DNA of 64,000 bases from an uncultured Campylobacterales bacterium. Lineage in GTDB: Bacteria; Campylobacterota; Campylobacteria; Campylobacterales; Arcobacteraceae. A program made the position numbers and the translations under genes. Under the pieces are notes generated by a model, which was not told where the DNA came from, made no database searches, and saw only the letters and a list, made by a program, of their open reading frames with translations. The stretch lies in the NCBI GenBank assembly GCA_947503785.1, contig CANNFB010000007.1, positions 1-64,000 of the forward strand, written 5' to 3'. This document shows, one piece after another, positions 46,039 to 52,360 of this stretch. The stretch's first letter is position 1. Each line of letters opens with the position of its first letter.

Positions 46039-47190
46039 TTATATTTTGTGTTTCCATATCTCTTTTAATTTTTCTAAAAATAGAAGGATCTCTTTATTAT
46101 CAGTTTTATACTTATCTATTTCTTCTTTAGTTTTTTCAATTGCATTTATACACTCACTGATTATTAAATCATATTCTTTATCATTTATCATACAAGAATT
46201 CTTTGCAAAATTTTTATAAGTTTTTTCTTTCCACCAAAGTTTTCCATCTGACATTCTAAGTGCGGGGATATCGTTTTTGATGTAAATTGTTGTTGTGATT
46301 ACGTCATATATTGGAGAAAATCTTGCATCTTCAAAATCTTTATCATATATAATCCCATAGTTTTTAAGATGTCCATCGCCATTTTGTAAAAGATGATTCA
46401 TCACTATTGCTTTGAAAAAATCTTTTAGTGTTTTCTTTCTATTTTGTATTGGGATTATTTCTTTTATAACTCTTACTATTTCTTCATAAGAACCATTGTA
46501 TTTATCATCTGTTCCTCTACCTGTTAATACACACATATCTTCAAAACCTAAATAAGTGTTATCTTCTTTTACATCAAATCTTTTCATTATAAACATTGAT
46601 AAATCATCTGAAAGATAAAAATCTTCCGTTTCTAATCCTGCGTTTTTAATAGCTCTCATACAAAAGTATTCATTTAAGGCTAACTGTGAATATTCACTTG
46701 TCCATGATTTTACTATGTAGTGTTCAAAATTCATGGATGTTTTGTTTTGTGCTGTAAGTAGTAGTTTTGGTTGTACTCCTGAAACACCTGATGTTATTGC
46801 AAACTTTTTTAGTAATTCATCAAATAAGTTTTCAGTTTTACTATTTAAAATTTCATCTAGTTTTAGTTGTTCAGCATCTTCTAGTATTTCTTTATATTTT
46901 ACTCTACCTAAAACATAAGGACCTATAAGTTCTAAGAAACCTATATCATCCATTTTTTTGATTTTTGAAAAGTGATTTTTGATTACTTCTTTTAATGCAC
47001 CTTCTGGAAGGTTCATCTGAAAAATAGGGTGAAGTTTTTTAGAAGTCCAAGAGTTTGAACGAATTGGCATAGTAAGAGATACTATATTTTTTGTATTTTC
47101 ATTGTAGTTAAACACATAAATATCATTCTCTTTATAAAGATTACCCGCAAGTTTTTTATTTGTAAATACTTTTAGTTTATTATTCTTCAT
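46039..47190 (-). CDS. hipA: HipA-family serine/threonine kinase toxin
   Basis: The 383-residue protein has HipA kinase motifs: the glycine-rich GVSGVQPK (135-142), Lys161 in IVKSW, the catalytic loop LLQNGDGHLKN (Asp272, Asn277) and the metal-binding Asp296 in IYDVITT. HipA of E. coli phosphorylates glutamyl-tRNA synthetase and causes persistence; shorter HipA-like proteins have other targets. It overlaps the upstream antitoxin gene by 11 bases. All key residues are present, so it should be active. Confidence 0.93.
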   Translation of the reverse strand: MKNNKLKVFTNKKLAGNLYKENDIYVFNYNENTKNIVSLTMPIRSNSWTSKKLHPIFQMNLPEGALKEVIKNHFSKIKKMDDIGFLELIGPYVLGRVKYKEILEDAEQLKLDEILNSKTENLFDELLKKFAITSGVSGVQPKLLLTAQNKTSMNFEHYIVKSWTSEYSQLALNEYFCMRAIKNAGLETEDFYLSDDLSMFIMKRFDVKEDNTYLGFEDMCVLTGRGTDDKYNGSYEEIVRVIKEIIPIQNRKKTLKDFFKAIVMNHLLQNGDGHLKNYGIIYDKDFEDARFSPIYDVITTTIYIKNDIPALRMSDGKLWWKEKTYKNFAKNSCMINDKEYDLIISECINAIEKTKEEIDKYKTDNKEILLFLEKLKEIWKHKI

Positions 47191-47434
47191 TTTTTAACTC
47201 CTCTTGGAGTTCTTCTAGTGTTCTTGGACGATTTTTTAATCGTATACTAAGCTCATAACCTAACAAATCAAGAATAGTTTCTACTTTTTTAATTCCAACT
47301 TCATCATTAAAACCATTTTCCATTTTAGAAATAGTTTTTTTAGTGATGTTAGAATATTCTTCTAATTGTTCTTGTGTTAAGTTTTTTTCTTTTCTTAACT
47401 CTTTTAGTTTATAGCCTAAGTCTTCTATTTTCAA
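47180..47434 (-). CDS. hipB: HipB-family antitoxin/repressor
   Basis: The 84-residue protein is an Xre-type helix-turn-helix regulator (LGYKLKELRKEKNLTQEQLE followed by TKKTISKMENGF), with a short acidic C-terminal tail. It would bind the HipA kinase to neutralise it and repress the operon. Two AAGTAT/ATACTT palindromes lie within 70 bases upstream of its start. The next gene, hipA, overlaps it by 11 bases, the usual order. Confidence 0.92.
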   Translation of the reverse strand: MKIEDLGYKLKELRKEKNLTQEQLEEYSNITKKTISKMENGFNDEVGIKKVETILDLLGYELSIRLKNRPRTLEELQEELKNEE

Positions 47435-49359: not shown

Positions 49360-50361
49360 ATGATTAAAAGAGAGTTTTTACAAAAGCACGAAAAATTAGA
49401 TTTTAAATTCTATCAAAATGTTGATGATTTTATTGTTGAAGAAGTTCCCATTAAATTTAAAGGTCGTGGTAATTTTATAATTGCAAAGATTAAAAAAACT
49501 AGATTAGGAACTTGGGATTTATTAGAAAGTTTAGCAAAGGGCTTACGAATTTATGAAAATGAATTAGGCTATGCAGGACTTAAAGATAAAAATGCAACAA
49601 CAACTCAATATATATCAATTCCAAAAAAGTATTCAAAAGATTTAAAGCAATTTAGACATAATAAAATTAAAATTTTAGAAACTACACTTCATGGAACAAA
49701 ACTAAATATTGGAGATTTAATTGGAAACTCTTTTGAAATAAATCTTCATGAAGTTAAAGCACAAGATGTTGGAAAAATTGAAAAACTTCTAAAGCAAATT
49801 TCTACTGTTGGTATGCCAAATTATTTTGGTTATCAAAGATTCGGTCGTGATGGTAAAGAAAACTTAGAGAAAGCTAGAAGATATATTTATGAAGATTATC
49901 AAATCAAAGATAGAAAAATATCTAAGATGTTAGTATCAGCTTATCAAAGTGACTTTTTTAATAAATGGTTAGTTGAGAGATTGAGTTTATGTGAAGATAC
50001 ATTTAAGCCAATGGATGGTGATGTATTTAGAGAGTATAGAAGTGATGAGTTTTTTACACCAAAGAATCTAACACCTGAAATGTTAAATGACTTTAATGAT
50101 AAAAAAATAGTACCTACAGGATTATTACCTGGAAATAAAGCATTTAGAAGTATCAAAGATGCAAGAGAAATTGAAGAAAAGTATGATGATACTTATATTC
50201 AAGAAAAAGGTTATAGAAGAGATGCTGTTGTTTATCCTAAAGATATAAGTGTACAGTATGATAAAAATACCAGTAAGTGTAAAGTTAAATTTACATTGCC
50301 AAAAGGCTCGTATGCTACAGTTCTAATTGAAAATATTGCTAATAGAAACCTAAGAGCTTAG
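49360..50361 (+). CDS. truD: tRNA pseudouridine(13) synthase TruD
   Basis: The 333-residue enzyme converts U13 of tRNA (chiefly tRNA-Glu) to pseudouridine. The TruD catalytic motif GYAGLKDKNATTTQY holds the nucleophile Asp76; FGYQRFGRDG and the C-terminal PKGSYATVLIENI (following the KFTLP strand) are further family marks. Length is near that of E. coli TruD (349). It has its own promoter and ends inside the stem of a bidirectional terminator shared with the thioredoxin gene. Confidence 0.95.
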   Translation: MIKREFLQKHEKLDFKFYQNVDDFIVEEVPIKFKGRGNFIIAKIKKTRLGTWDLLESLAKGLRIYENELGYAGLKDKNATTTQYISIPKKYSKDLKQFRHNKIKILETTLHGTKLNIGDLIGNSFEINLHEVKAQDVGKIEKLLKQISTVGMPNYFGYQRFGRDGKENLEKARRYIYEDYQIKDRKISKMLVSAYQSDFFNKWLVERLSLCEDTFKPMDGDVFREYRSDEFFTPKNLTPEMLNDFNDKKIVPTGLLPGNKAFRSIKDAREIEEKYDDTYIQEKGYRRDAVVYPKDISVQYDKNTSKCKVKFTLPKGSYATVLIENIANRNLRA

Positions 50362-50370: not shown

Positions 50371-50743
50371 TAGTAGAAGTGTTTGTAAAATATTCTTTTT
50401 CATATTTTTTTAGTTGTTCAACACTTCGAACTCCTAGTTGTTTACCAACAATTTGTCCATTTTCTAGATAAATTAAAGTAGGAACACCTTTAATTTGAAA
50501 TTGTGCTGCAAGAAGTTCTTGTTCTTGAATATCTAGTTTATAAATTTCTACGTTATCTTGTTTGCTTGTATTATATTTTGTCAAGTTTTTACCTAAAACC
50601 TTACAAGACCCTCACCAAGTAGCATAAAAATCAATAATTACATTTTTGTTTTTAATTTTATCTTCAATATTTTCAAGAGTTAAATGTTCAAATGCAAATA
50701 ACGATGAAAAACTTAAAAAGAAAATTACAAGTAATTTTTTCAT
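50366..50743 (-). CDS. Secreted thioredoxin-fold selenoprotein (UGSC motif, UGA read as selenocysteine)
   Basis: The minus-strand frame from ATG 50743-50741 (behind AAGGAT) encodes a signal peptide (MKKLLVIFFLSFSSLFA) and a thioredoxin fold: IIDFYATW, then TGA at 50614-50612 (codon 44), then GSCKVLGKNL, and later KGVPTLIYLENGQIVG with the cis-proline. The UGA stands exactly where the first Cys of WCxxC belongs. An 11-bp hairpin with a GG-containing loop starts 6 bases after it. Read through, the product is 125 residues, a normal periplasmic thioredoxin length. It would be a thiol/disulfide reductase with selenocysteine in the active site. A nonsense mutation is possible but the hairpin argues against it. 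Confidence 0.85.
50579..50605 (-). promoter_or_regulatory. Bacterial SECIS-like hairpin
   Basis: On the minus strand TGTAAG-GTTTT pairs with AAAAC-TTGACA (one A-G mismatch, one G-T pair) around the 5-base loop AGGTA. The stem begins 6 bases, and the loop GG 18 bases, after the UGA at 50612. Bacterial SECIS elements bound by SelB have this distance and a guanine-containing apical loop. Confidence 0.75.
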
Positions 50744-50905: not shown

Positions 50906-52360
50906 ATGAAATTAAATGACTTAAAAGTTGATATGGATTATTTCCATATAGATGAAAAATTATATCAAAAACTAAACCCAACACCTTTGAAAAATCCAAA
51001 ATTAGTATCTTTCAATAAAAAAGCCTGTGATTTAATAGATTTAGATTATGGTGAATGTGAAACACAAGAATTTTTAGATCTTTTAAATGGTGTTAAAACT
51101 TTAGAAAATTCACAAAGCTATTCTATGGTTTATGCAGGTCATCAGTTTGGATATTTTGTTCCACAATTAGGTGATGGACGTGCTATAAACTTAGGAAAGG
51201 TAAAGTCATGGCATTTACAAACAAAAGGCTCAGGACTTACTAAATACTCAAGACAAGGGGATGGAAGGGCAGTGCTTCGTTCTTCCATTAGAGAATATAT
51301 TATGAGTGAAGCTATGCATGCTTTAGATATTCCAAGTACAAGAGCTCTAGCTATTATTGACTCAGATACCTTTGCTCATAGAGAATGGGAAAAAGAGTCT
51401 TGTTCTGTTGTGATGAGAATGTCACCTTCTTGGGTAAGAATAGGTACTTTCGAGTTTTTTGCAAATACAGAGAACTCAAAAGAAAATACAACAAAACTTG
51501 CAGATTATGTAATAGAACAAAATTATGCACATTTAAAAGATGAAAAAAACAAGTATGAAAAAATGTTTTATTCTTTAGTTGATAAAACAGCTTCAATGCT
51601 CGCACGTTGGCAAGTATATGGATTTATGCATGGTGTTATGAATACTGATAACTTCTCAATGGCAGGTGTTACTATTGATTATGGTCCCTTTGCTTTTATG
51701 GATTATTTTGACAAAAACTGTATTTGTAATCATACAGATGGGGAAGGGCGATATTCGTATAATAATCAGCCATACGTAGCTAGATGGAATTTGAGTGTAT
51801 TAGCTAATGCCTTAAGAGAAATATGTGATGAAGATAAACTTCTTGAATATTTGAAAACATTTCTTCCTCAGCATGAAAATGTATACTTAGAACTAATAAA
51901 TCAAAGACTTGGACTGCTTGCGAATAAAAGTGGAAATAGAAATCTTGATTTAATCTTAGAACTTTTAGGAGCATTAGAAACTTCTAAAATGGATTACAAT
52001 GTATTCTTTCACAGATTAACATCTTTAAAATCTTTTAATGATTTATCTTCAATTACTAACTTTTGTGTATTTAGAGAGCCTTTAGAAAAATGGTTTGATT
52101 CATATAGAAAAGTTTGTGAAAAAGAAGAAAGTAGTTTTGAGCAAAGACATGAAATAATGAAAATAGTAAACCCTAAATATATAATCAAAAACTATATGCT
52201 TCAAGAAGCAATTGAGTTAGCTCATACGGGAGATTATTCACTAGTAAATGATTTATTTGAAATTGCACAAAATCCGTTTGATGAACATAAAAAATATGAT
52301 AGATACTCAAATCCTACACCAATGGAATTTGCAAATATAAAACTTTCTTGTTCTTCTTAA
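50906..52360 (+). CDS. selO: Protein adenylyltransferase SelO (YdiU family)
   Basis: The 484-residue pseudokinase-like enzyme transfers AMP from ATP to proteins. Family marks include VYAGHQFGYFVPQLGDGRAI near residue 75, LQTKGSGLTKYSRQGDGRAV, the catalytic NTDNFSMAGVTIDYGPFAF and FDKNCICNHTDGEGRYSY. The protein ends in LSCSS; in animal SelO the corresponding residue is selenocysteine, and here it is the cysteine coded by TGT. Its neighbour in the opposite direction is the selenocysteine thioredoxin gene, with 162 bases between; shared regulation is not evident. Confidence 0.96.
   Translation: MKLNDLKVDMDYFHIDEKLYQKLNPTPLKNPKLVSFNKKACDLIDLDYGECETQEFLDLLNGVKTLENSQSYSMVYAGHQFGYFVPQLGDGRAINLGKVKSWHLQTKGSGLTKYSRQGDGRAVLRSSIREYIMSEAMHALDIPSTRALAIIDSDTFAHREWEKESCSVVMRMSPSWVRIGTFEFFANTENSKENTTKLADYVIEQNYAHLKDEKNKYEKMFYSLVDKTASMLARWQVYGFMHGVMNTDNFSMAGVTIDYGPFAFMDYFDKNCICNHTDGEGRYSYNNQPYVARWNLSVLANALREICDEDKLLEYLKTFLPQHENVYLELINQRLGLLANKSGNRNLDLILELLGALETSKMDYNVFFHRLTSLKSFNDLSSITNFCVFREPLEKWFDSYRKVCEKEESSFEQRHEIMKIVNPKYIIKNYMLQEAIELAHTGDYSLVNDLFEIAQNPFDEHKKYDRYSNPTPMEFANIKLSCSS

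Follow-up and report, generated by a model that had tools for sequence, protein, structure and literature searches.

The window, a stretch of 64,000 nucleotides, carries on its minus strand a thioredoxin gene (50743-50369) with an in-frame UGA at 50614-50612. Read from the ATG at 50743 with the UGA decoded as selenocysteine (Sec, U44), the gene comprises 125 codons and gives the translation MKKLLVIFFLSFSSLFA-FEHL...DFYATWUGSCKVLGKN..., in which Sec is flanked as MKKLLVIFFLSFSSLFAFEHLTLENIEDKIKNKNVIIDFYATW-U-GSCKVLGKNL.... The product was matched to Pfam PF00085 (thioredoxin) with an E-value of 2.8e-23 and a score of 82 bits against a cut-off of 23.5. The UGA stands where a thioredoxin has the first Cys of its CxxC motif, and was aligned with the WCGxC of solved thioredoxin/PDI chains. 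The active site reads W-UGA-G-S-C; the resolving residue of the UxxC motif, Cys47, is retained, and its codon (50605-50603, minus strand) doubles as the outermost 5' bases of the hairpin stem described below. On inspection of the sequence the protein likely carries a signal peptide, with a positive start, a hydrophobic run and an SLFA cleavage-like end encoded at 50743-50693 of the minus strand. In the standard ORF list the thioredoxin was reduced to a 72-aa fragment after the UGA.

The gene is flanked on the plus strand by truD (49360-50361, PF01142), a convergent neighbour whose adjacency to the thioredoxin is kept in the genus, and by selO (50906-52360, PF02696, E-value 1.2e-125), a divergent neighbour encoding a YdiU-type protein adenylyltransferase. 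By synteny, selO also adjoins the Sec thioredoxin in Poseidonibacter-type loci and at loci L020, L027 and L031. The SelO of the window has a C-terminal CSS with Cys where eukaryotic SelO has Sec. Elsewhere in the window, at 46039-47434 of the minus strand, lies a gene for a HipA-like kinase (PF07804, PF13657) with one for a small helix-turn-helix-like protein ahead of it; these two genes are a possible HipBA toxin-antitoxin pair.

A SECIS-like hairpin had been proposed to lie just after the UGA, with one mismatch, the loop AGGTA, a stem beginning 6 bases past the UGA and GG 18 bases past it. All of this was confirmed on the minus strand, where the UGA is followed by GGGTCT (six bases), TGTAAGGTTTT (50605-50595), the loop AGGTA (50594-50590) and AAAACTTGACA (50589-50579). 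The full hairpin as first described (50605-50579, minus strand) contains one A-G mismatch at 50602/50582, one G-U pair that had gone uncounted, 7 contiguous pairs and a 5-nt loop. In the loop, GG begins 18 bases past the UGA, and 17 nt separate the UGA from the apical loop.

RNAfold predicted the hairpin with a free energy of -6.2 kcal/mol when 39-45 nt were folded and of -9.8 kcal/mol when 61 nt were folded with upstream bases included. Against dinucleotide shuffles of this sequence alone the z-score was -0.9 to -1.15, and 27-34 of 200 shuffles were equally good. The single-sequence fold is unremarkable and barely better than shuffles, and folding of this kind, not being significant, was dropped as proof of a SECIS element. 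Geometry was scanned over the window for UGAs followed by a stem of 5 bp or more, with at most one G-U pair and GG opening a loop 16-19 nt downstream; 12 of 2401 UGAs matched, and by this measure the hairpin exceeds chance. The settings were strict and miss SelD and a few UGA homologues whose stem has two G-U pairs or whose loop has GAG. The Rfam scan of the 64,000-nt window gave no match to a SECIS family, with tRNA-Leu alone being found.

Homologues were sought in 104 Arcobacteraceae genomes with UGA read through, and homologue sets were built from match coordinates. The thioredoxin with an in-frame UGA was present in 20 of the 104 genomes, across several genera, and a Cys version was present in many others. 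A search of the phylum added one more UGA copy, in a genome of another family of the same order (G418) that has selB. Full-length homologues with the same UGA are 88% identical, the closest named relative being Poseidonibacter ostreae (88%). An apparent TGA in genome G149 was rejected, because the codon is a stop that precedes a cytosolic thioredoxin of the ordinary type.

The loop guanine of the original prediction proved invariant: in all 19 distinct UGA sequences the apical hairpin is kept and the second base of its loop is G. UGA homologues lacking the hairpin were looked for among these 19 and none was found; one copy, L071, retains the stem-loop with its register shifted by one base. The compensatory changes sought in relatives were present in the apical pairs. 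Given the register, the five apical pairs of the UGA set show 19 double-sided changes against 6.7 in shuffles (0 of 500 shuffles), counts that are not independent because the homologues are related to one another. Covariation was seen in 3 of the 5 pairs, with UA/CG at alignment columns 17-29 and 19-27 and GC/AU/GU at columns 16-30, and RNAalifold returned the same five pairs from the UGA homologues unprompted. In the 30 Cys homologues there was no consensus structure and no excess of covariation. The stem as first drawn is supported by covariation in its apical part, a 5-bp stem of 50599-50595 with 50589-50585 (hairpin 50599-50585, minus strand) closing the apical loop AGGUA (50594-50590), in which the conserved second base is G50593. 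For the lower part of the stem, alignment columns 10-15 pairing with 31-36, no covariation support was found, and the Cys-Lys codons fix some of it.

Selection on the RNA was visible at the codon level. Each sequence was recoded synonymously with the codon usage of the window, and the mean energy of the hairpin region was -3.7 kcal/mol for the real UGA sequences against -0.6 kcal/mol for the recoded ones (z -13.7, 0 of 1000); the z values overstate independence, the sequences being related, and the direction is clear. The Cys set barely departed from its recoded versions in the same test (z -1.9). Greater stability than shuffled controls is thus borderline for the single sequence (z about -1) and clear over the whole set with synonymous codon shuffles. 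Between close pairs, dS was 0-0.11 over residues 46-60 and 0.2-0.8 elsewhere, and dN/dS downstream of the UGA was mostly 0.1-0.4 among UGA copies. The low dN/dS after the UGA and the near-zero dS under the hairpin indicate that the region past the UGA is translated and selected, and that the RNA itself is selected.

These data bear directly on whether an ordinary Cys thioredoxin has here acquired a nonsense mutation or a sequencing error, the hairpin being a chance product of AT-rich sequence. Such an origin would fit the non-significant stability of the single sequence and the existence of a Cys ortholog (L018) at the same truD-selO locus with 79% identity. The same UGA is found, however, in about 20 separately assembled genomes, the frame after it is under purifying selection, the stem covaries and the genes for selenocysteine are present. 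The shared UGA and the selection on the downstream frame refute this explanation, which we regard as vanishingly improbable; the original prediction had already held a random nonsense mutation to be less likely.

The genome to which the window belongs has a tRNA-Sec with anticodon TCA (score 49 bits, cut-off 47, with ARAGORN in agreement), which is adjoined by selA and selB. Its selD has an in-frame UGA of its own, as has a formate dehydrogenase gene. Hairpins with a GG loop were read by eye 17-18 nt after the UGA in both SelD and FdhA, that of SelD failing the strict scan because of extra G-U pairs. SelD and the formate dehydrogenase subunit are two further predicted selenoproteins of the genome. 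The two genes (G000:C17:1049-1969 and C17:21805-24588, respectively) share a contig, with about 20 kb between them. A TPP riboswitch is located within 300 bp after the tRNA-Sec (L001 1501-1974, contig C4 of the same genome).

Within the family, selA was present in 19 of the 20 genomes with the UGA thioredoxin, and 32 genomes had neither the UGA thioredoxin nor selA (Fisher p 0.003, uncorrected for relatedness). The exception, G097, is an 86%-complete MAG with a UGA copy in which neither selA nor selB was detected. The conservation among homologues, the covariation and the machinery in the same genome together support the SECIS reading.

The machinery also allowed general decoding of UGA to be weighed, in which readthrough or a changed code would place another residue at UGA and the hairpin would merely promote readthrough. 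UGA is indeed rare as a stop in the AT-rich window, ending 2 of 38 long ORFs. Some genes nevertheless still end in UGA, the UCA-anticodon tRNA is by its model a tRNA-Sec, the UGAs that were checked fall at known Sec sites (the first Cys of Trx, SelD and FdhA), and homologues exchange the UGA for Cys codons only. This reading is accordingly given very little weight.

In the tree of the family, UGA and Cys sequences form two groups separated by a weakly supported split, and many genomes carry one of each. Three Cys sequences (L018, L082 and L084) fall within the UGA group. The Cys ortholog L018 (G093:C25) has a TGT Cys codon and the motif CPSC, keeps the hairpin base for base, and belongs to a genome that still has selA; from its sequence it is a recent Sec-to-Cys change with a remnant SECIS element. 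In L082 the GG of the loop and one stem pair are gone. L084 is the tandem neighbour of L020 (G092:C1:911444-912221), the two forming a pair of exported thioredoxins of which one has UGA and one Cys. The genome with this pair has two more copies, L071 with UGA and L080 with Cys.

The Sec-to-Cys changes at L018 (a hairpin remnant) and L082 (hairpin decay) would be compatible with the window gene having once encoded Sec and being no longer decoded in this strain. In the window, however, the UGA, the hairpin and the machinery are all intact, synonymous sites are frozen under the hairpin and dN/dS is low, so that a decayed SECIS element is considered highly improbable for this gene.

The codon at the loop encodes Gly, or Glu (GAG), in the UGA copies, and mostly Ala, Ser, Thr or Asn in the Cys homologues. 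This difference suggests that the RNA loop may constrain the protein residue to Gly or Glu. A history that we somewhat favour is one in which an exported thioredoxin of Arcobacteraceae was duplicated into a Cys and a Sec line, the loop of the Sec line dictated the residue after the active site, and repeated reversion to Cys left hairpins that are intact (L018) or decaying (L082). If this were true, the L018/L082 series would give a natural view of a SECIS element losing its function.

Having weighed these alternatives, we consider it very probable that the hairpin serves as a bacterial SECIS element through which SelB places Sec at the N-terminal active-site position of an exported thioredoxin. 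The UGA and hairpin are conserved, the stem covaries, purifying selection acts past the UGA, and selA, selB, selC and selD are present. The actual insertion of Sec, the export and the redox role of the thioredoxin we infer from these data. The mRNA would offer a short stem with a G-containing apical loop 17 nt past the in-frame UGA; SelB carrying Sec-tRNA-Sec would bind this loop just downstream of the ribosome, which would then put Sec at the UGA instead of terminating. The product would be exported, probably to the periplasm, and act as a UxxC thiol-disulfide reductase whose attacking residue is Sec. Standard gene calling cuts the protein at the UGA and may thereby overlook an active-site redox enzyme in many members of Arcobacteraceae. 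The group offers close orthologs of both kinds, Sec and Cys, at a single locus, some with the hairpin and some lacking it, which should be useful for studying the benefit of selenium to a periplasmic thioredoxin and the decay of SECIS elements.

The SECIS element of E. coli fdhF has GGU in its loop, GG about 18 nt past the UGA and a bulged U in its core stem. The window hairpin is alike in the GGU loop and in the distance of GG from the UGA, whereas its stem has no bulged U, is weaker and is A-U rich. A published model of bacterial SECIS elements has an apical loop of 3-9 nt on an upper stem of 4-16 bp, G within the first two bases of the loop, 16-37 nt from the UGA to the apical loop and an MFE limit of -7.5 kcal/mol (PMC13188914). 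The window hairpin agrees with this model in the sizes of loop and stem, the loop G (AGGUA) and the spacing of UGA and loop (17 nt); of its energies, -6.2 kcal/mol (39-45 nt) lies above the limit, which counts against the SECIS reading, and -9.8 kcal/mol (61 nt) lies below it, and the limit may refer to another fold length. According to the main text of Cravedi et al. (2015; PMC4607533), SECIS elements of epsilonproteobacteria have, a few nt past the UGA, an apical hairpin of 5-6 bp with an invariant loop guanosine, and one Sec thioredoxin is included; that text mentions Arcobacter only for the Cys homologue of another protein and leaves the organism of the Sec thioredoxin unnamed. The window hairpin shares the short apical stem and loop G described there.

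Trx selenoproteins (PF00085, UxxC) are listed as experimentally verified, citing Kim et al. 2015 (PMC13188914, PMC9312934). The Arcobacteraceae proteins are alike in the thioredoxin fold, the one Sec at the N-terminal CxxC position and the in-frame UGA with a bSECIS; they differ in that the branch has a likely signal peptide, has the motifs UGSC, UPSC, UYAC or UPAC and groups beside a Cys group. Cys homologues with remnant SECIS elements also have a precedent (Zhang et al., 2006, Fig. 4; PMC1794560), in which no Sec-to-Cys events are given for Trx. L018 resembles these in that an intact SECIS-like hairpin comes after its Cys codon, and would make Trx a new family for such events. Since the UxxC Trx family, an epsilonproteobacterial Sec thioredoxin with its SECIS element and remnant SECIS elements are all precedented, the mechanism is already known, and the Arcobacteraceae thioredoxin is clearly, at the level of sequence, a well-supported new example of it.
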